From the IMG/VR virus record IMGVR_UViG_3300030380_001578, positions 1 through 29,269 of that record: DNA of 29,269 bases. One strand, 5' to 3'. The position numbers were made by a program, and so were the translations under genes. This DNA is from a virus. The notes under the pieces are model-generated. The model worked only from the letters and a program-made list of their open reading frames with translations, was not told the origin of the DNA and made no database searches. Positions within the stretch are counted from its first letter, which is position 1; the number at the start of each line of letters is the position of its first letter. Below, piece after piece: positions 961 through 29,269 of this stretch.

Positions 961-3292
961 AAAGAAAACACCATCAAATGAATATATGTTTGGCTCAATG
1001 GGTTCAAGTTATTCATTGACTGATTCACAAGAAATAGAAAAAAGAGGTTCAGAATTTATTTGGTATGGAATGGACAATCTATTTCCACAACATACAATCC
1101 AATTATATCAAAATTCAGCCACACAAAACGCATTAGTCAATTCAATTGCTGCCTGGATTTATGGTGGTGGAATTGATGCAGACAACAAAGAACAACATCC
1201 AGAAGATTGGTTAAAGTTCAATAAACTAATAAACCACAAGATTGGAAAGAATGACATTCAATTGATGTGCATGGATTTGAAACTTCATGGTGGTTTCTAT
1301 ATTTCATTAACATATTCAGTTGACAGAACAGAAATTGTTGAAATGGAAGTATTGCCATTTGAAACAATGCGTTCTGGACATACAGATGAAGATGGAAATG
1401 TTGAATGGTATTATCATTCACATGATTGGAAAGCTGGTTCAAGAGCAAAATATACAGAACACAGAGCATTTAATCCACATGAAAAAGCAACATATCCAAA
1501 TCAAGTTTTATGTGTTAAAATGAATTCTGTTGGTTCATATTACTATCCAAAACCAGATTGGATTGGTGCATGGAATTATGTTGAATTAGATGTTAATGTT
1601 GCTCAATTTCATTTATCACAAATTGAAAATGGTCTTGCTCCATCATTCATTATCAACTTTGCAAATGGTATTCCAGCAAGGGAAAAGAGAGAAGACATAA
1701 AAAGAACTATTGAAGCAGAACTTTCTGGTTCAAGAAATGCTGGAAAGTTTTTATGTACTTTTTCAGATGGTAGAGATACAACACCAGACATTCAAGCAGT
1801 TCCATTGTCAGATGCAGACAAGCAATTTCAATTCTTATCAACTGAAATAACCAACAAAATAATGGTTGGAAATCGAGTTGTTTCACCAAGATTGTTTGGT
1901 GTGAATGCTGATGGTGGTGGTCTTGGAAACAATGCTGAAGAATTACAAACTGCATCTGCTTTGTTTGAACAAACGGTTGTCGATCCATTTAGAGATGTGA
2001 TAATTGATGCATTAAAAATGTTAATGGCTGAAAGCGAAGTAAATCTTCAATTGTTCTTTAAGCCATTTGATATGTTCAAGACAGAATTTGCAGATACAGA
2101 AGCAGAAACAATTAATGAAGAAGTTGCAACAGAAGTAATTCCAACAATGACTGGTGACCATATTGAACCAACACTTGACTTGATTGCAAAAGTAAAAGAT
2201 GGAACATTGACACAAGAACAAGCAATTGTCTTCATGAATCAGTTCTTGAAATTTCCAATGGACATTGCACAAGGTTTTTTCAGTGAAACACCAGTTGCAA
2301 CATTTCAAGAATTGTCATCAAAAAAAAAAGATGAAAGACCAAAACTGACAGATGAAATGTCTGCATACTTTCTTTCAAAATTAGAAGAATGTGCAGAAAA
2401 GAATGATGATAATGCATGGGAATTGTTAATTGATGAAAAAGCATCTGAAGTAAGTTTAAAGACCATTGATGACATAGACAGAAAGCCAACAAAAAGAATG
2501 ATGGCTGAAGCGAAAAAAGGTCTTGAAATGCGAAAAGAATTTGGTCGAGGTGGAACAGAAGTTGGTGTTGCTCGTGCAAGAGACATCATGAATGGCAAAA
2601 ATCTTTCTGTTGAAACAATAAAAAGAATGTATTCATTTTTTAGCAGACATGAAGCATCAGTGAAAAAAGGCAAAGGATTTAAAAAAGGTGATGAAGGCTA
2701 TCCAAGTGCTGGTAAAATAGCGTGGTTGTTGTGGGGTGGTGAAACTGGTTTTGATTGGGCAAAAAGAAAAGTCAAAGAGATTGAAAATGTGCAACAAAAT
2801 ATGCACAAATTTGCTAATAAAATGCCAACAAAATCAATGGCTGATGCAGATGCACAATCACAACTTGATGTCGGTCTTTACAAAGTCAGATATTACTATC
2901 AAAAAACAAACAATGTTCCAAACAAACCTGGCAACAAATCAAGAAAGTTCTGTGACATCATGATGGAATGGTCTGGTCAAGGTCTTGAATGGACATTTGA
3001 AGACATTCAAAAGATGTCAGATGATGCAGTCAATGGTGAATTTGCAATGAAAGGTCAATCAAGATATGATTTGTTTGAATACAAAGGTGGTTGTTATTGC
3101 AGACATGGTTGGATGCGTAGAATATATTTCAGAAAAAGAAATCCAGATGGGACATTCATGCCATCCAAAGGTCTTGACAATGAAATAAGAGTAGGAAACA
3201 ATCCATTTATCAGACAAAAAGGATCAGAAGCAGTTGCACCTTACGATATGCCAAACCATGCAAAGGTGAATCCACCATTTATGAAAGACTAA
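953..3292 (+). CDS. Portal protein fused to two C-terminal modules
   Basis: The portal is the dodecameric ring at the capsid vertex through which DNA is packaged and ejected. Residues about 1-400 have the look of a portal core: an N-terminal region with WYGMDNLFPQ, then NALVNSIAAWIYGGGI, with RLFGV and GNNAEELQTASALFEQ near the end of the core. Two further modules follow. Residues about 514-615 hold GRGGTEVGVARARDI, LSVETIKRMYSFFSRHEA and KIAWLLWGGE, a module seen in several phage structural proteins. Residues about 640-779 hold FCDIMM (Cys667) and YKGGCYCRHGW (Cys714, Cys716, His718), resembling the C-terminal part of MuF-like minor head proteins. At 779 residues it is much longer than a simple portal, which fits absorption of the minor head protein. 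The next gene is a head-tail connector. The portal role is well supported by context and motifs; the roles of the extra modules are inferred. Confidence 0.83.
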   Translation: MAKKKTPSNEYMFGSMGSSYSLTDSQEIEKRGSEFIWYGMDNLFPQHTIQLYQNSATQNALVNSIAAWIYGGGIDADNKEQHPEDWLKFNKLINHKIGKNDIQLMCMDLKLHGGFYISLTYSVDRTEIVEMEVLPFETMRSGHTDEDGNVEWYYHSHDWKAGSRAKYTEHRAFNPHEKATYPNQVLCVKMNSVGSYYYPKPDWIGAWNYVELDVNVAQFHLSQIENGLAPSFIINFANGIPAREKREDIKRTIEAELSGSRNAGKFLCTFSDGRDTTPDIQAVPLSDADKQFQFLSTEITNKIMVGNRVVSPRLFGVNADGGGLGNNAEELQTASALFEQTVVDPFRDVIIDALKMLMAESEVNLQLFFKPFDMFKTEFADTEAETINEEVATEVIPTMTGDHIEPTLDLIAKVKDGTLTQEQAIVFMNQFLKFPMDIAQGFFSETPVATFQELSSKKKDERPKLTDEMSAYFLSKLEECAEKNDDNAWELLIDEKASEVSLKTIDDIDRKPTKRMMAEAKKGLEMRKEFGRGGTEVGVARARDIMNGKNLSVETIKRMYSFFSRHEASVKKGKGFKKGDEGYPSAGKIAWLLWGGETGFDWAKRKVKEIENVQQNMHKFANKMPTKSMADADAQSQLDVGLYKVRYYYQKTNNVPNKPGNKSRKFCDIMMEWSGQGLEWTFEDIQKMSDDAVNGEFAMKGQSRYDLFEYKGGCYCRHGWMRRIYFRKRNPDGTFMPSKGLDNEIRVGNNPFIRQKGSEAVAPYDMPNHAKVNPPFMKD

Positions 3293-10952: not shown

Positions 10953-11346
10953 ACAATCAGAACAAGAATTGCAAAAAGCAGTCATCAAGTATATGAATCT
11001 GCAACATCCATCTATTTTTATAAATGGATCAATGGGTGGAATATATATCAAGCATCAATCTCAAAGAATAAAAGCAAAACTTTGTGGCTATCGAAAAGGT
11101 TTTCCAGATTTGTTCATATATGAACCAAGAATCATTCATGGTAAAATAAGACATGGACTTGCAGTTGAATTGAAAGTCAAGGGAAACTATACAACTGAAC
11201 CACAAAAAGTTGTTCTGAACAGACTTGATTCATCTGGATATGTTTCAATGGTATGCACTGGATTTGACCAAGCCATTGAAACAATTGAATGGTATTTGAA
11301 TTGCACCGTTCCAGAAGTTGATGTGAATTATACAATCAAGGAATGA
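10945..11346 (+). CDS. VRR-NUC domain nuclease
   Basis: The product has the VRR-NUC core of the PD-(D/E)xK superfamily. GFPDLFIYEP supplies the metal-binding Asp, AVELKVKG the E-x-K pair, and TTEPQKVVLNRLDSSGY the following Q-x-x-x-L helix. Phage proteins of this type act as structure-specific nucleases, often resolving Holliday junctions during replication or before packaging. I chose ATG 10945 because MRKQSEQELQKAVIKYMN is the usual N-terminus; ATG 10930 would add five residues. It overlaps the sigma-like gene as ATGA. Confidence 0.85.
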   Translation: MRKQSEQELQKAVIKYMNLQHPSIFINGSMGGIYIKHQSQRIKAKLCGYRKGFPDLFIYEPRIIHGKIRHGLAVELKVKGNYTTEPQKVVLNRLDSSGYVSMVCTGFDQAIETIEWYLNCTVPEVDVNYTIKE

Positions 11347-11876
11347 AAAATCAATGGCATCCAATTGAATGGATATACAAAGACTTCAAATACTATCTTG
11401 GTTTTGCTATAAATAAAACCAAAGACAAAGATTTATCTGAAGACTTAGTCCAAGAAACATTTCTTCAATTGATGACCATGAACCAACATAAACTTTTAAT
11501 CATCATTGATTCTGGCAAGATTAAAACTTATGTCTGCAAGATTATGATGGTAAAATATTATTCAAACAAATCACAATTCAACAAAAAGATTGTTCAGTAT
11601 AAAAAGAAAAAGATTGAAAGCAATGATTCATTCCTGGAACACTTGGTTAATAAGAATGCTGAATTCGATGAAGATGCAAATGAACATCTAAACATAATGA
11701 ACAAAAAAATTGATGACTGCTTAAAAACATTTGATGAATATGACAGAAAGTTGTTTCAATTATATTATGAAACTGGTCTTTCAATAAGAAGACTATCTGA
11801 AGAAACTGGAATCACTTTTAAAAGTATTCAATACACAATTGACAAAGTAAAAAAGAACATTAAAGATTTGATATGA
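11343..11876 (+). CDS. Sigma-70-family (ECF-like) RNA polymerase sigma factor
   Basis: The 177-residue protein has a region-2-like motif DLSEDLVQETFLQL (residues 30-43), a charged linker, and a region-4-like helix-turn-helix (DEYDRKLFQLYYETGLSIRR, then LSEETGITFKSIQYTIDK) at about residues 130-175. This two-domain layout matches ECF sigma factors. A phage sigma factor would redirect host RNA polymerase, plausibly to the packaging and structural block starting about 2.3 kb downstream. The alternative is a sigma-like transcription regulator. It overlaps both neighbours as ATGA. Confidence 0.8.
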   Translation: MKNQWHPIEWIYKDFKYYLGFAINKTKDKDLSEDLVQETFLQLMTMNQHKLLIIIDSGKIKTYVCKIMMVKYYSNKSQFNKKIVQYKKKKIESNDSFLEHLVNKNAEFDEDANEHLNIMNKKIDDCLKTFDEYDRKLFQLYYETGLSIRRLSEETGITFKSIQYTIDKVKKNIKDLI

Positions 11877-14204: not shown

Positions 14205-14492
14205 ATGCCATTTGAAAAAGGAAATCAACTTGCTGGTAGTAGAAAAGGAATACCAAACAAGACAACTGCTGAAATTAGAAATGCTTTTCAATTATTAGTT
14301 GAAGATAATCTTGACAACATGAAAGTGTGGTTGTCTGATGTTGCAGCAGAAGATCCAGAAAGAGCATTGGAAATCATTCTGAAGATGTCTGAATATATTG
14401 TTCCAAAACTATCAAGAACAGAAGTCAAAGCAGACATCACAGATAAATCAATTGTGATAAACTTGAACAGACTGAATGCCAAAAACAATTGA
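14205..14492 (+). CDS. Terminase small subunit-like protein (DUF5681-like)
   Basis: The 95-residue protein begins FEKGNQLAGSRKGIPNKTTA, a strong signature of the DUF5681-type proteins found before phage large terminases. A helical EDPERALEIILKMSEYIVPK segment follows, then a short polar tail. It directly precedes TerL and overlaps it by 17 bases. The small subunit normally recognises the packaging site and stimulates TerL. The protein is shorter than classical TerS, so it may be a reduced version. Confidence 0.72.
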   Translation: MPFEKGNQLAGSRKGIPNKTTAEIRNAFQLLVEDNLDNMKVWLSDVAAEDPERALEIILKMSEYIVPKLSRTEVKADITDKSIVINLNRLNAKNN

Positions 14493-15792
14493 CATAGATT
14501 TGTTTGATAAACAAGCTGATTGTTTTGCATACCTTGAAGATGATGTCACAACAGAAATCTTGTTTGGTGGTGGTGCTGGTGGTTCAAAAACATTTACTGG
14601 TTGTCTTTGGCAAATACACAGAAGACTTGAATATCCAGGAACAAGAAGTGTGATTGGTCGAAGTAAACTGAAGAATCTGAAAGCAACAACATTGAACACA
14701 TTCTTTGAAGTTGCACAAGACTTTGTTGGTTTAAAAGCAAATGATGATTTCACATACAATGCACAAGATTCAACAATCACTTTCTTCAATGGTTCAATCA
14801 TATATCTAAAAGACTTGTTTTTATATCCATCCGATCCAGACTTCACATCACTTGGTGGTCTTGAAATCACAGATGCATTTGTTGATGAATGTGCTGAAGT
14901 ATCACACAAAGCAATCAATATTTTAAATTCAAGAATTCGTTTTAAGTTGGACAAGTTTGATTTGATTCCTAAAACTTTGATGACTTGCAATCCAACTAAG
15001 TCATGGTTGTATTCTGAATTTTATAAACCAGCAAAAGAAAACAGATTGCCAGAACATAGACAATTTATTCAATCACTTGTTACAGACAATTCTGCAATAT
15101 CTGAACACTACATCAAACAATTAGAAAAACTTGACAAGGTTTCAAGACAAAGACTTCTTCTTGGTGATTGGGAATATAACGAAGATGATGCACTTCTATT
15201 TGATTATGATTCAATTCATGATATGTTCACAAACAATGTTGAAGATGGAATGAAACACATTACTTGTGATGTTGCCAGATTTGGTTTAGATAAAACGGTC
15301 ATCATTCTTTGGAATGGTTTACAAGTGGAGCAGATTTCAACACTTGCAAAATCATCAGTCACAGATACAATTCAAGCAATTAAAACAATGGCACTACAAA
15401 ATGGCGTACAAAGGTCACACATCATTGTTGATGAAGATGGTGTTGGTGGTGGTGTCAAAGATGGTCTGTCTGGTTGCAAAGGTTTTGTCAATGGATCAAA
15501 AGCACTGAAGTCAGAAAACTTCCAGAACTTAAAGACACAATGCTACTTCAAACTTGGTGAAATGGTTAATGCTGGAAAGATAGCAATCAAAGACACAAGA
15601 CACAAACAAACCATTATTGAAGAGCTCGAAATCATCAAAAGAGATAAGATTGACAAAGACACACAGAAACTTTCTATTGTTCCAAAAGATACAATGAAAG
15701 CATTGCTTGGAAGGTCACCAGATTATGCAGATGCTTTGATGATGCGAATGTGGTATGAAGTAAAAGGAAACTATGGTGTGTATGCATTTTGA
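14476..15792 (+). CDS. terL: Terminase large subunit
   Basis: The 438-residue motor-nuclease packages DNA into the prohead. The ATPase domain has Walker A GGGAGGSKT (residues 31-39) and Walker B AFVDECAEV (Asp137, Glu138). The RNase-H-like nuclease domain has CDVARFGLDKTV (Asp265), IIVDEDGVGGG (Asp319/Asp321) and SPDYADALMM (Asp416, Asp419), so its metal-binding acidic residues are present. Length is typical. The start at ATG 14476 overlaps TerS and leaves a short N-terminus before Walker A, as usual in this subgroup. A 37-base gap follows before the tail genes. Confidence 0.96.
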   Translation: MPKTIDIDLFDKQADCFAYLEDDVTTEILFGGGAGGSKTFTGCLWQIHRRLEYPGTRSVIGRSKLKNLKATTLNTFFEVAQDFVGLKANDDFTYNAQDSTITFFNGSIIYLKDLFLYPSDPDFTSLGGLEITDAFVDECAEVSHKAINILNSRIRFKLDKFDLIPKTLMTCNPTKSWLYSEFYKPAKENRLPEHRQFIQSLVTDNSAISEHYIKQLEKLDKVSRQRLLLGDWEYNEDDALLFDYDSIHDMFTNNVEDGMKHITCDVARFGLDKTVIILWNGLQVEQISTLAKSSVTDTIQAIKTMALQNGVQRSHIIVDEDGVGGGVKDGLSGCKGFVNGSKALKSENFQNLKTQCYFKLGEMVNAGKIAIKDTRHKQTIIEELEIIKRDKIDKDTQKLSIVPKDTMKALLGRSPDYADALMMRMWYEVKGNYGVYAF

Positions 15793-15829: not shown

Positions 15830-16429
15830 ATGAAGAAGACAATTGAAATAAACATTCCAACTGATTGGTCTGATGTTAGCATTGAAAAATATGTGAAATA
15901 CAATAAATCAATGAAAGACTTAGATGATGAAAAAGAAATCATCGTTAAGACTATTTCAATTCTGTGCAATGTACCTGGCCAAGTAGTTGAGGTCATGAAA
16001 TTAAAAGATTTAAAAAAGATTCAAGAGAATCTGCAAAAGCTAATCAGCAAACCAGTAAACAAAGACATCATAAATAAAATTGACATCAATGGTGTCAAAT
16101 ATGGATTCCATCCAAATCTTGATGAAATGACAATGGGCGAGTTTGTAGACATTGAAACTTATGCAAAAGAAAATGACATTGCTAAAATGATGTCTGTACT
16201 TTATAGACCAATAACAAAGGAAACTGGAAACAGATACAATATTGAACCATATGACTTTGATAAGCATCAAGACAATGCAATTCAATTTCAAAAATTATCA
16301 ATTAATATAGGTAATGCAATTGCAGTTTTTTTTTGGACTTTAGGAAAAAAACAACTCAAAAGTTTCCATCAGTCTTCAAAAAAGGAACTAAAAAATCAGT
16401 CAGTTCCAATTATGGATGGTTTGCAATAA
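15830..16429 (+). CDS. Tail assembly chaperone, short (frame 0) product
   Basis: The 199-residue protein begins with a beta-strand region (TIEINIPTDWSDVSIEKYVKY), continues with helices, and holds a family-like MTMGEFVDIETYAKE motif at about residues 100-114. Such proteins wrap the tape measure during tail assembly. Near its end, the frame crosses a T9 run and an A7 run and then drifts into a 36-residue tail that ends as NQSVPIMDGLQ. The conserved continuation lies in the -1 frame at 16333-16587, so a longer fused product of about 252 residues is expected from ribosomal frameshifting. Confidence 0.8.
   Translation: MKKTIEINIPTDWSDVSIEKYVKYNKSMKDLDDEKEIIVKTISILCNVPGQVVEVMKLKDLKKIQENLQKLISKPVNKDIINKIDINGVKYGFHPNLDEMTMGEFVDIETYAKENDIAKMMSVLYRPITKETGNRYNIEPYDFDKHQDNAIQFQKLSINIGNAIAVFFWTLGKKQLKSFHQSSKKELKNQSVPIMDGLQ
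16327..16351 (+). promoter_or_regulatory. Candidate -1 ribosomal frameshift sites
   Basis: In frame 0 the codons read GTT TTT TTT TGG ACT TTA GGA AAA AAA CAA. They give two correctly phased slippery heptamers, T_TTT_TTT at 16327-16333 and A_AAA_AAA at 16345-16351. A -1 slip at either enters the open frame that ends at 16587. A 6-bp inverted repeat GGAACT/AGTTCC (16384-16389 and 16402-16407) lies downstream but is farther than usual for a stimulator. Confidence 0.65.
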
Positions 16430-16587
16430 TTGATGGACTATCAAATGGTGATGTGTTAAAAATTGATGCAATCACAAAACTTCCAATGATGTTGTGTTTG
16501 ACCAAACTTTCACTTGATGCAGATAGAAACATTGAAAGAGAAAAAGAAGCAAGACAAAATCAGAATAAAAGCAAAGCAAGAAGATGA
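16333..16587 (+). CDS. Tail assembly chaperone, -1 frame extension
   Basis: This frame has no good start of its own and begins inside the T run. Its content is protein-like and conserved in style: NYGWFAIIDGLSNGDVLKID and LPMMLCLTKLSLDADRNIER resemble the C-terminal half of Bacteroidota-phage chaperones, where a Gly-Trp-Phe/Tyr segment precedes a Gly-Asp-x-x-x-x-Asp segment. It is therefore read as a fusion to the upstream chaperone. Either programmed -1 frameshifting or a sequencing error in a homopolymer would explain it; tail chaperones favour the first. Confidence 0.7.
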   Translation: MDFRKKTTQKFPSVFKKGTKKSVSSNYGWFAIIDGLSNGDVLKIDAITKLPMMLCLTKLSLDADRNIEREKEARQNQNKSKARR

Positions 16588-17789
16588 TTACTTATAAAAC
16601 AATTATACAATACTTTGATTCTATTGCCGACCAACATCAGCAAATCAATTCTTTCAGCTATGGTGAAATGAACTTCTTTGACAAAGATAAATTCACCGAA
16701 TATCCAGCACTTCATTTAACACCAACTTCAACTTCAATAGATGACCAAGTTGTTGTATATGGTTTTGATGTAATAGTGTTTGACAGATACAATGTTGAAT
16801 CAAATAAGATGCGTAATGAAGCACAATGTTTGTCTGATGCACTTTTGATTCTTCAAGATGTATGCAAAGAAATAACAGATGGAAAATATTTCATAAATGC
16901 AGACACTTTGATTTCTATGGAGATGCCTATTCTTGCAGAACCATTTATTGACACACAACCAGACAATTGTTCTGGATGGGCAACATCATTTAATGTCATA
17001 ACACCAAATGAAGCATCAGCGTGTTTGATTCCTTACTTCAATCCAGAAAGACAAAATGCTTTAGTTTATACATTACCTAAATCTGCACCAACATCACTTG
17101 CTTGGTATTCAAGAGAACAGATACATTCAAAAGCAACATTTGTTGGTCAAGAATTGAACCATCTTTCTCCAGTTGTTGATACTTTACCTGGCGCAGATAC
17201 ATTGACTTTATTTGGTAGTTCAGTGACTTGGAATCCACAAAAGAATGCTTTTAGAATGTATGATGTTTCTCAAACAAATTTAATGACATTAAGACATGAT
17301 GCAGTTATAGAAACAGAAGCAACTTTTTTTATAAGAATTAAAGATTTTGGTAGATATTCATTCAAAGCAGAAGCAAATTCAATCTGTTATTTTGGTGCAA
17401 TTTCATCTGGTGTTAATGGGTTTGAATTAACAACAAATAGTGTTGGAAAATTAGTTTGTACATCATTTTCAGATAGTTCTTTTATGACAAGTGATTTTGC
17501 TATTTGTCCAACTAATGGAAATAGTGAAGAAAATGCACACAAAAGACTTGAATCTTTAACAATATGCATTCAATTGACTGAAACAAAAATCATTGTTTGG
17601 TATGGAAGCACTTCAAATGATAAAATGGAAATGACTACTTCTTTTGTTTTAGACAATAAATCATTTGGCATTGGCAACACAGATGTTGCAAATAAGTCAA
17701 ACTTTTATCTTCAAGAATATTTGTACACACCAACTGCAATGTCAAACTTAGACATTGAACAAACAATGGAGTGGTTAAATTATAGGTAA
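16584..17789 (+). CDS. Minor tail protein with C-terminal lectin-like domain
   Basis: The 401-residue protein has an N-terminal domain of about 165 residues (TIIQYFDSIADQHQQINSFS, then VVVYGFDVIVFDRY) that looks like a tail-completion or terminator fold. The C-terminal 210 residues look like a concanavalin/LamG beta-sandwich, with RHDAVIETEATFFIRIKDF in the middle and FYLQEYLYTPTAMSNLDIEQ near the end. The ending resembles lectin domains added to phage tail proteins that bind surface glycans. It probably sits on the tail and contributes to host adhesion. It overlaps the chaperone extension by four bases. Confidence 0.65.
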   Translation: MITYKTIIQYFDSIADQHQQINSFSYGEMNFFDKDKFTEYPALHLTPTSTSIDDQVVVYGFDVIVFDRYNVESNKMRNEAQCLSDALLILQDVCKEITDGKYFINADTLISMEMPILAEPFIDTQPDNCSGWATSFNVITPNEASACLIPYFNPERQNALVYTLPKSAPTSLAWYSREQIHSKATFVGQELNHLSPVVDTLPGADTLTLFGSSVTWNPQKNAFRMYDVSQTNLMTLRHDAVIETEATFFIRIKDFGRYSFKAEANSICYFGAISSGVNGFELTTNSVGKLVCTSFSDSSFMTSDFAICPTNGNSEENAHKRLESLTICIQLTETKIIVWYGSTSNDKMEMTTSFVLDNKSFGIGNTDVANKSNFYLQEYLYTPTAMSNLDIEQTMEWLNYR

Positions 17790-23850: not shown

Positions 23851-24098
23851 AAACAATTGTAGAACTTAATTGTTCAAAAGCTAAAAAGAAAAGTTTAAAA
23901 GGTTTTAAAGTATTAAACTTCACACCAATGTTTGAATATTGGCAAGGTGCATTCAAAATAATACCAGAAGCACTTCAGAACTTGCCAAATGAAAACTATG
24001 AAAACAATAAATGTTTGACTTGGTATGAAAGACAAGAAATGAATCATGATAAAGTGATGAAAGAATTTAAAAGAATATTCCAATGGCAGAAAAAATAG
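23838..24098 (+). CDS. Small protein between adhesin and tape measure, 86 aa
   Basis: It overlaps the adhesin end by 13 bases and the tape-measure start by 16 bases. The product (MEHIKTIVELNCSKAKKKSL...) is basic and has several Trp and Tyr (FEYWQGAFKI, CLTWYERQEM, FQWQKK). A chaperone or tail-initiator role next to the tape measure is possible. No family is recognised. Confidence 0.68.
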   Translation: MEHIKTIVELNCSKAKKKSLKGFKVLNFTPMFEYWQGAFKIIPEALQNLPNENYENNKCLTWYERQEMNHDKVMKEFKRIFQWQKK

Positions 24099-25723
24099 TT
24101 GTTGACATAGAGTTTCAAACCAATGTGAAAAAGATTTCTACAGACTTAGAATCTGTCAAAGATGCTTTGTCTGAAACTAATGAAAATCTTGAAGACATTA
24201 AGAATACTTCAAAAGGGACTGAAAGTGCATTGAAGAAAGTTGGAAATGGTTTCAAAGGTGTTGGTCTTGCTATGAAGACCCTTGGAATTGGTCTTGTGAT
24301 TGAAGCATTTAATTTCTTGAAAGAAATAATGATGCAGAACCAAACGGTGATGGATGGTGTAGCAGTTGTCACAGAAACACTTGGTGTCATATTCAATGAA
24401 GTCACAAGTGTTGTGACTGATGTGTTTAATGCAGTTTCAGATTCAACAGAAGGTTTTGAAGGTCTTAAAAATGTGATAAGTGGTTTAATTACTATTGCAG
24501 TCACACCATTAAAACTTGCATTTTTTGGAATTACACTTGCAGTTCAAGAAGGTCAATTGGCATGGGAAGAATCATTCTTTGGTGATGGCGATCCAGAAAC
24601 AATTAAACAACTAAATGAAAAGATAGTTGAAACAAAAGACAATTTAAAAGAAGTTGCAACAGATGTTGTTGATGCTGGAACGCAAATAGTTTCAAATTTT
24701 AGTGAAGCAGTCACAGAGCTCGGTTCAGTTGTCACAATAGCAACTGAAGTTGCCACAGAAGGAATAAAAGAAATATCAATTGAACAATCAATTGCAACTG
24801 GTAAAGCATTAGCAGATGCAAAGAAAAATGAAGAACTTCTTGAAGTCATTAGAGCAAAACAACAATTGCAAAGTCAATTGGAAGCAGAGCAACAAAGACA
24901 AATTCGTGATGATGTCAGATTGACTTTTGAAGAAAGGATTGCAGCCAATGAAGAGCTTGGAAGAATACTTGATGAACAAATAATGAAAGAAAAAGAAGTT
25001 GCAGATGAAAAAGTCAGAATTGCAGCACTTGAACTTTCAACACAACAAGATTCAGTTGATTTACAAATAAAATATCAACAAGCACTTCTTGAACAAATTG
25101 ACATTGATGAAAGGATTGCTGGTCAAAGGTCTGAGCAGTTAACAAATGAAGCATCACTTCAACAAGAAGCATTTGACTTCCAAGTGGAACTTGCAGAACA
25201 ACAAAAAGAACTTGAACAAGAAGCACTTGACCATCAAGTTGAAATTGCAGAAAAGAAAAAACAACTTGCTGCTGAACAACTTGATGTGATACAAAATTCA
25301 ATCAAGATGGCTGGTGAATTATTTGCTGAAGGAACTGCTGCATCAAAAATTGCTGGTGTGACATCAGCAACAATTGACACTTATAAAGCAGTAAACATGG
25401 CATTAGCATCTGCACCACCACCATTGTCTTATGTGTCTGCTGCACTAACACTTGCCACTGGTTTAAAAAATGTAAAAGAAATATTAGCAGTTAAAACAGA
25501 AAAACCAGTAAACTTATCTGCTCCAGGTGGTGAATCAATTCCAAGTGGTTCTGCTACACAAAGTGAAACAATCACTGACTTATCAGACATTCCATCAATA
25601 ACAGAACAATTTAATGCACAATTTAACCAAAACACACAACCAATTCAAGCGTTTGTGGTAGAACAACAAGTGACAAATTCACAACAGATTAACACAATGA
25701 TTCAACAAAAAGCAACACTTTAA
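24083..25723 (+). CDS. Tape measure protein, 546 aa
   Basis: This protein spans the tail lumen and sets tail length. Features are a helical N-terminus (KISTDLESVKDALSETNENL), a hydrophobic stretch at about residues 52-85 (FKGVGLAMKTLGIGLVIEAF), and a membrane-like helix SGLITIAVTPLKLAFFGITL. A long Gln/Glu coiled coil covers about 250-415. The C-terminal third is Gly/Ala-rich, ending with IQAFVVEQQVTNSQQINTMI, a typical ending in Bacteroidota phages. At the usual 1.5 angstroms per residue the tail would be about 80 nm, a short siphovirus tail. Position just before the protease and after the adhesin completes the tail block. Confidence 0.85.
   Translation: MAEKIVVDIEFQTNVKKISTDLESVKDALSETNENLEDIKNTSKGTESALKKVGNGFKGVGLAMKTLGIGLVIEAFNFLKEIMMQNQTVMDGVAVVTETLGVIFNEVTSVVTDVFNAVSDSTEGFEGLKNVISGLITIAVTPLKLAFFGITLAVQEGQLAWEESFFGDGDPETIKQLNEKIVETKDNLKEVATDVVDAGTQIVSNFSEAVTELGSVVTIATEVATEGIKEISIEQSIATGKALADAKKNEELLEVIRAKQQLQSQLEAEQQRQIRDDVRLTFEERIAANEELGRILDEQIMKEKEVADEKVRIAALELSTQQDSVDLQIKYQQALLEQIDIDERIAGQRSEQLTNEASLQQEAFDFQVELAEQQKELEQEALDHQVEIAEKKKQLAAEQLDVIQNSIKMAGELFAEGTAASKIAGVTSATIDTYKAVNMALASAPPPLSYVSAALTLATGLKNVKEILAVKTEKPVNLSAPGGESIPSGSATQSETITDLSDIPSITEQFNAQFNQNTQPIQAFVVEQQVTNSQQINTMIQQKATL
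25157..25264 (+). repeat. Two imperfect 54-base tandem repeats in the tape measure
   Basis: Bases 25157-25210 and 25211-25264 encode LQQEAFDFQVELAEQQKE and LEQEALDHQVEIAEKKKQ, 11 of 18 residues identical. The repeat keeps the coiled-coil pattern. An in-frame unit of this kind could lengthen or shorten the tail in discrete steps. Confidence 0.7.
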
Positions 25724-28196: not shown

Positions 28197-28775
28197 ATGT
28201 CATGTTTAATCGCATCTGGTCGTGGACATTTTTGTCAAGGACAAGTAGGTGGAATTAAGAAAATATATCTTGCAAATTGGTATGATGCAAACAGAATCAC
28301 AGATGTGACTGCATCTGCAACAACTGGTGCAGTTTCAGACATCACAACTGCTGGATCATTAGACTTTTTTGAATTTAGTCTTGACAGACAAACATCATCA
28401 TTCAATCAGACAATAACAACTGGTGGTGGTGGTGCAATAAACTATGAACAATCACTTGACTTGCACATGAGTCATGATTCAGAAGAATCTTGGGCAAGAA
28501 TGCAGAATGTAGTTGAATCAGTATTTCAAGCAATTATCCTTGACAACAATGGTGTTTATTATCTTGCTGGTGTTGACAATGGCATAAGTGTAAATGGTGG
28601 AACATATGCACATGGTGGTGATGTAGCATTCACAGACTATGTTGGATATGTATTGCAAATGATTGGTTCAGAACCTTTTCCAGCATACAATTTGACAACA
28701 ACTTCACCATTCAAATCATGGTCTGGTGGAACATTAACATTGTCAGCTACAACATACAACACTGCACAAATTTAG
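28197..28775 (+). CDS. Major tail tube protein (complete copy)
   Basis: The 192-residue beta-rich protein begins MSCLIASGRGHFCQGQVGGI and continues with KKIYLANWYD. It then has FFEFSLDRQTSSFNQTITTG and ILDNNGVYYLAGVDNGISVN, ending in a Gly-Tyr-x-Leu-x-Met-x-Gly-x-Glu strand (GYVLQMIGSEPFPAY). I recognise this as the common Bacteroidota-phage structural protein with Cys near the start, Gly-Gly-Ile-Lys-x-x-Tyr, and Asp-x-Asn-Gly-x-Tyr-x-x-Gly, which I judge to be the tail tube subunit. It lies after the capsid gene between two terminators, consistent with an abundant virion protein. A decoration-protein role is the alternative. Confidence 0.72.
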   Translation: MSCLIASGRGHFCQGQVGGIKKIYLANWYDANRITDVTASATTGAVSDITTAGSLDFFEFSLDRQTSSFNQTITTGGGGAINYEQSLDLHMSHDSEESWARMQNVVESVFQAIILDNNGVYYLAGVDNGISVNGGTYAHGGDVAFTDYVGYVLQMIGSEPFPAYNLTTTSPFKSWSGGTLTLSATTYNTAQI

Positions 28776-28797
28776 TTTAGTTTGGTTGATTAATTTA

Positions 28798-28831
28798 AAA
28801 AGGGTGGTGGTTTGTTCCATCACCTTTTTTT
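28798..28831 (+). terminator. Rho-independent terminator after tail-tube gene (right copy)
   Basis: This is the same hairpin as at 262-294. One base just outside the main stem differs (G to A), slightly lengthening the A run, and two extra bases (AT) follow the T run. The stem itself is unchanged. Confidence 0.75.
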
Positions 28832-28844
28832 ATATCTTTAAATT

Positions 28845-29012
28845 ATGAAAATAAAAAAAGAATTTATCGGTCATGTAATTCACAAAGGTAGAGTGAAAAT
28901 CTATTTAAGTGAAGTTGTTTCAGAAGCAACAATGAAAAGGTTAATTGCTGAATATCCACAATATCTGGAACAAGACAAACCAAAAAAGAAAAAGAAAGAT
29001 GCTACATCTTAG
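28845..29012 (+). CDS. Small basic unknown protein, 55 aa (right copy)
   Basis: This is the second allele of the gene at 306-473. Three third-position changes leave the protein identical. It supports the reading frame as truly coding; the function is unknown. Confidence 0.75.
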   Translation: MKIKKEFIGHVIHKGRVKIYLSEVVSEATMKRLIAEYPQYLEQDKPKKKKKDATS

Positions 29013-29269
29013 AAGTTCAAATGGCTATCAGAATGTATTTTCACTTGATGTTTATTCAAGTGTATATGCAAACACCATTTCAAACTTTGGAGTTGAAAAT
29101 TCATTAACAAGACAATACACACCAAACTTTAATTCTGACTATACTGGTTTTAATTATTATATAAAATTGATTGATCAATTAAGTCAAAAAGATTATTGGT
29201 CATTATTGTATTATAATGTTACAGAATCAAAATACCCAAGAGCTCTTCAATTCAAAATATATCTTGATG
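28999..29269 (+). CDS. Unknown structural-block protein, N-terminal part (cut by window end)
   Basis: This is the second allele of the gene at 460-960, truncated by the end of the window after 90 codons. Ser to Leu and Ser to Asn changes (the latter by two adjacent base changes, TCT to AAT) distinguish it. Two further differences are silent. Confidence 0.8.
   Translation, partial: MLHLRSSNGYQNVFSLDVYSSVYANTISNFGVENSLTRQYTPNFNSDYTGFNYYIKLIDQLSQKDYWSLLYYNVTESKYPRALQFKIYLD

Follow-up and report, generated by a model that had tools for sequence, protein, structure and literature searches.

In a 29,269-nucleotide stretch of viral DNA (positions 1 to 29,269 of the IMG/VR record IMGVR_UViG_3300030380_001578, hereafter the window), a gene beginning at position 15,830 runs into a homopolymer of nine T's (T9) beyond which a second reading frame lies open, raising the question of whether this locus encodes two products and, if so, whether it is the ribosome or the RNA polymerase that would slip to yield the longer one. 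The initial annotation had read it as a programmed -1 frameshift in a tail assembly chaperone, with two alternative slippery runs. The conservation of the locus strongly supports programmed -1 recoding that yields a C-terminal extension, and we favour, with a probability of roughly 0.55, a programmed slippage of the RNA polymerase adding one extra U over -1 ribosomal frameshifting at U_UUU_UUU. The elements concerned are the following.

15830..16429, plus strand: frame-0 product of 199 residues, made of an N-domain (residues 1-168) and, past the slip site, a tail of 31 residues that is not conserved.
16326..16334, plus strand: slip site, the T9 homopolymer, with T_TTT_TTT at 16327-16333; 9-11 T's in all 139 lineages.
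16333..16587, plus strand: C-terminal extension in the -1 frame, 84 codons after the two phenylalanines (FF), stop TGA at 16585-16587; the selected frame, encoding a predicted helical domain.
16345..16351, plus strand: A_AAA_AAA, the second slippery run proposed earlier; incidental.

At the slip region, frame 0 of this open reading frame (ORF; 15830-16429) reads GCA GTT TTT TTT TGG ACT TTA GGA AAA AAA CAA, and the open -1 frame spans 16315-16587 of the window. The layout was as the initial annotation had described it: T_TTT_TTT and A_AAA_AAA stand 18 bases apart and both in phase, the -1 frame (announced as about 80 codons) runs for 84 codons after the slip to a TGA ending at 16587, this stop overlaps the next gene by four bases at 16584, and the fusion would count 252 residues against 199 for the unshifted product. 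Conserved peptide patterns served to find relatives (the best 80 kept per scan), and loci were retrieved through their N- or C-domain, the slip site itself never being a search criterion; since loci include repeated contigs, lineages, defined as 80% identity clusters, provide the fairer count. An N-domain search gave 18 IMG/VR loci, and searches with C- and N-domain profiles several hundred more. In one set of 171 loci with both domains, every locus is arranged for a -1 shift, 159 having T9 and 12 T10. Retrieval by the N-domain alone yielded 79 usable loci, all with T9 (66), T10 (11) or T11 (2), and a further set showed T9 in 157 of 158 loci, L361 being the exception. Overall, among 139 lineages (400 loci, 301 distinct proteins; L361 outside the set), 121 have T9, 16 have T10 and two have T11, the run occurring in several reading registers and being seven or eight T's long in none. 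The -1 extension, which had been thought conserved in content, is indeed kept together with the T run, down to 21% identity, with a single exception among about 400 loci covering the junction. Relatives with one continuous frame at this point, the counter-evidence that the initial annotation had suggested looking for, were found nowhere among these approximately 400 loci. The shift direction is -1 in all loci except L361, in which a T8 (2397-2404) replaces T9 as the sole difference from L357 over 1.2 kb and turns the arrangement into +1; L361 is perhaps a variant, perhaps misassembled.

Substitutions indicate which of the two frames is maintained. In the dual-open stretch of close pairs, they fall at the third position of -1 codons (712) more often than at the first (394) or the second (316), the third position of -1 codons being the second position of frame 0. 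Moreover, the frame-0 tail after the slip varies from 17 to 88 codons across relatives. Because of this substitution pattern, the variable tail length and the ATGA overlap with the next gene, the -1 frame is the one under protein-level selection, and the frame-0 tail is not. Synthesis of a separate C-protein from an internal start was considered and rejected, as in most relatives the domain either lacks methionine or has none in its first 30 residues.

The length of the T run is what bears most directly on mechanism. A homopolymer of about 8-9 bases or more under purifying selection is expected for transcriptional realignment, and here 9-11 T's are retained in 139 of 139 lineages; in the window, no T run other than T9 (16326-16334) reaches eight. 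Efficient slippage in vivo by bacterial RNA polymerase has been reported on nine A's or T's, with an RNA-DNA hybrid of 9-10 bp (review, PMC5009743). A T precedes the heptamer in 97 of 116 lineages, only 8 of these 97 having TT after it; in the 19 lineages lacking this 5' T, TT or TTT follows the heptamer in 19 of 19, one of them reading TTT TTT TTT CTG. Shuffling the two run ends predicts about 15 lineages with fewer than nine T's and none was observed, a contrast that relatedness inflates. On the tree, we counted about six changes of the 5' T and about 12 register changes overall, the run never falling below nine, and a phylogenetic pair test of register compensation, of low power, gave a median p of 0.25. 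In 232 kb of other genes from these loci (333 genes), T runs of at least nine are absent (about 2 expected), T8 occurs once (5 expected) and in-phase T_TTT_TTT 21 times (37 expected); T7 is depleted in every phase, out of phase at least as much as in phase. A comparable depletion of runs in all frames in E. coli has been attributed to possible transcriptional slippage or mutation (PMC4066793). Regarding the codons of the run, TTC as second Phe codon was found in none of 116 lineages, with about 24 expected.

Taken as a mechanism, unshifted expression would give the 199-residue frame-0 protein, and a fraction of expression shifted by -1 at T9 would join the 168-residue N-domain to the 84-residue helical C-domain (252 residues). 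The main route would most likely be slippage of the RNA polymerase on T9 with addition of one U, ordinary translation of the U10 messenger RNA then proceeding in the -1 frame; slippage of the ribosome on U_UUU_UUU may contribute, and both mechanisms may act. If the system worked like lambda gpG/gpGT, the tape measure protein would be coated by the short form, and the less abundant fusion would bring in the subunits of the tail tube.

The serious contender, to which we assign somewhat below an even chance, is classical programmed -1 ribosomal frameshifting by tandem tRNA-Phe slippage on U_UUU_UUU (16327-16333) without stimulator. It accords with an in-phase T_TTT_TTT in all lineages, although any T9 contains one, and with the tail-chaperone precedents studied, which are ribosomal and in some cases devoid of stimulators (PMC5009743); P2 gpE, the namesake of Phage_TAC_7, slips at T_TTT_TTG, and a UUC codon in the A site could slip less, which would account for the missing TTC. 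However, seven T's suffice for a ribosome and runs of seven or eight T's exist in 0 of 139 lineages, lost 5' T's are matched by added 3' T's, and in-phase T_TTT_TTT also occurs in other genes (the 21 mentioned above, and one in the next gene of the window at 17324). A stimulatory RNA structure, common in ribosomal frameshifting but not obligatory, was detected neither upstream nor downstream by folding of 28 lineages (mean z from -0.16 to 0.19); the window by itself shows weak hairpins downstream, against a mean z of about 0 over these lineages. For the T9-T11 rule, transcriptional slippage is a better explanation than the ribosomal mechanism implied by the initial annotation, although DNA alone cannot separate the two mechanisms. 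Several observations weigh against polymerase slippage. Every tail-chaperone precedent known to us is ribosomal, and transcriptional realignment often, though not necessarily, shows both shift directions among homologues. Here the direction is -1 throughout (L361 excepted), and a constant direction was read by Antonov et al. as a sign of ribosomal frameshifting (PMC3711429). Since a phased T_TTT_TTT lies inside every T9 run, phase cannot split the heptamer from the homopolymer, so that it does not separate the two models; run length may. Long runs are also not always avoided, as A9-A10 runs are only mildly depleted in the 333 other genes and an A10 of the window (2320-2329) lies inside a 779-residue portal-containing ORF where neither other frame is open, and which is not a recoding site. 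Furthermore, the register compensation amounts to about six independent events, and the residues flanking FF could covary for protein reasons. We found no report of transcriptional slippage in tail chaperones in the open-licence PubMed Central literature, which is weak evidence.

Compared with these two mechanisms, the other readings of the locus carry little weight. That the T run and A_AAA_AAA act as two stacked slippery sites yielding two alternative junctions, as initially proposed, now seems highly improbable: both runs are in phase in the window and a distant clade (L018) also has a seven-A run just downstream, but just 2 of 116 lineages have an A_AAA_AAA in the 60 nt that follow, whereas all have a T run of at least nine, and close relatives have AAA GAA or CAA GAA in its place. 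Such in-phase heptamers are also found at about 12 other places in the window and in 74 copies in the 333 other genes. Comparison with related phages thus upheld the T run and the -1 extension and, judged by its distribution, A_AAA_AAA at 16345-16351 is background, refuted as a conserved feature. Even less probable, in our view, is a DNA-level frameshift in which the T run would reflect phase variation, a pseudogene or a sequencing error. The T8 of L361, otherwise identical to L357 over 1.2 kb, could be cited in its favour, together with some protein models in viral databases (e.g., A0A6J5N0W0), in which a single chain appears to comprise both domains; the same -1 arrangement nevertheless recurs in about 400 separately assembled loci and in an isolate genome, an in-frame fusion being found in none.

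Two possible relatives were set aside. In Elizabethkingia phage TCUEAP1, considered as a relative with a continuous ORF, the 180-residue gene following the terminase has only 44-46 residues of C-terminal similarity and no detectable N-domain, so that it neither supports nor refutes recoding; its hidden Markov model score is not independent, as the sequence is in the training set. Flavobacterium phage 6H gp10 (L182, 10352-10927, minus strand) is a weak fold relative in which the -1 frame closes at once after T_TTT_TTC. This gene ends near T_TTT_TTC, and a long open -1 stretch exists there, but beyond the immediate stop.

Regarding the nature of the protein, its identity as a tail assembly chaperone is likely, from weak homology and analogy. 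The N-domain matches PHROG 32199 (of unknown function) in 56 of 56 family members, PHROG 166 (tail protein) in 18 of 56 (best 4e-5) and Phage_TAC_7 (PF10109) in 10 of 56 (best 3.5e-4, the window at 0.054), all of the latter below the Pfam cut-off. It was modelled by AlphaFold2 with a predicted local distance difference test score (pLDDT) of 90.5, and a fold search of the PDB with this model gave no significant match; the C-domain is predicted to be helical (pLDDT 81). As in chaperones of the G/GT type, two products sharing an N-domain are predicted to be expressed, the longer one through the conserved and selected -1 extension. A position directly upstream of the tape measure gene is usual but not obligatory in such systems, and here the likely tape measure gene lies about 7.7 kb downstream. 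The chaperone assignment of the initial annotation is thus plausible through the Phage_TAC_7 and PHROG 166 matches and the G/GT-like arrangement, the fold itself being uninformative.

The neighbouring genes are arranged as follows.

14476..15792, plus strand: terminase large subunit, adjoining the chaperone-like gene upstream (Pfam Terminase_3, 2e-14); same neighbour in Nonlabens phage P12024S.
16584..17789, plus strand: next gene, 401 residues, its ATG overlapping the -1 stop (ATGA).
24083..25723, plus strand: candidate tape measure protein (phrog_3336, tape measure, 2.6e-7), encoded about 7.7 kb downstream.

The overlap between the ATG and the -1 TGA suggests translational coupling of the next gene, and the same -4 overlap (ATGA) is present in 45 of 116 lineages. 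For the candidate tape measure protein (24083-25723), a match to phrog_21537, a virion structural protein (3e-13), outscores phrog_3336 (2.6e-7). The chaperone-like gene (15830-16587) adjoins the large terminase gene far from the likely tape measure gene, an unusual order, and the terminase-chaperone neighbourhood of P12024S is alike. Of note, an ORF at 11343-11876 has weak matches to sigma-70 regions 2 and 4, and P12024S has a sigma-like gene shortly upstream of its terminase. Positions 1-730 and 28538-29269 of the window match at 98.1% over about 730 bases; these matching ends make it probable that the record represents a genome of about 28.5 kb, either circular or terminally redundant, with slight variation between strains. 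Its relationship to Nonlabens phage P12024S and to terminases such as that of Flavobacterium phage 11b (46%) points to a Bacteroidota host, a phylum that this marine phage of about 28.5 kb probably infects. A scan of genome contigs for this gene family returned one short match only, probably spurious, which suggests, without going beyond a hint, that phages of this group are rarely prophages.

The G/GT frameshift is among the most widely conserved viral recoding events and has so far been treated as ribosomal. If our reading is correct, the homopolymer-length rule of this clade would mean that transcription can also be the stage at which this protein ratio is determined. We see an even chance that in a widespread clade of marine Bacteroidota phages the ratio of the two chaperone products is set by RNA polymerase slippage on an invariant T9-T11 run, replacing the ribosomal frameshift of other long-tailed phages. 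For annotation, a T9-T11 run near the end of a gene just after the terminase gene provides a signature for proteins now listed as hypothetical. Among cultured phages, the closest comparison is with Nonlabens phages P12024S/L, which make the slippage question directly testable: their gene P12024S_38, directly downstream of the terminase gene, encodes a homologous N-domain (E=3e-12), carries T9 at CTT TTT TTT TAT and is followed by a -1 extension recognised by the C-domain profile, two IMG/VR copies agreeing, although it is distant (28% identity to L077) and annotated as a hypothetical protein. In lambda, the slip site is a GGGAAAG-type heptamer. Unlike lambda gpG/gpGT, the locus studied here has an invariant T9-T11 run instead of such a heptamer and lies right after the terminase gene, the likely tape measure gene being about 7.7 kb away; a low-level shift without obvious stimulators is known in gpG/gpGT and related chaperones too. 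The likeness to P2 gpE/E+E' (Phage_TAC_7, PF10109) consists of a weak profile match and of a poly-T slip site that shortly precedes the stop codon of E, whereas the P2 site itself, read directly, is GGT TTT TTG with six T's. Finally, with Thermus thermophilus dnaX the locus shares a nine-base A/T homopolymer, longer than the seven bases that a ribosome needs, and would share transcriptional slippage on it, dnaX being an unrelated gene in which slippage has been experimentally demonstrated.
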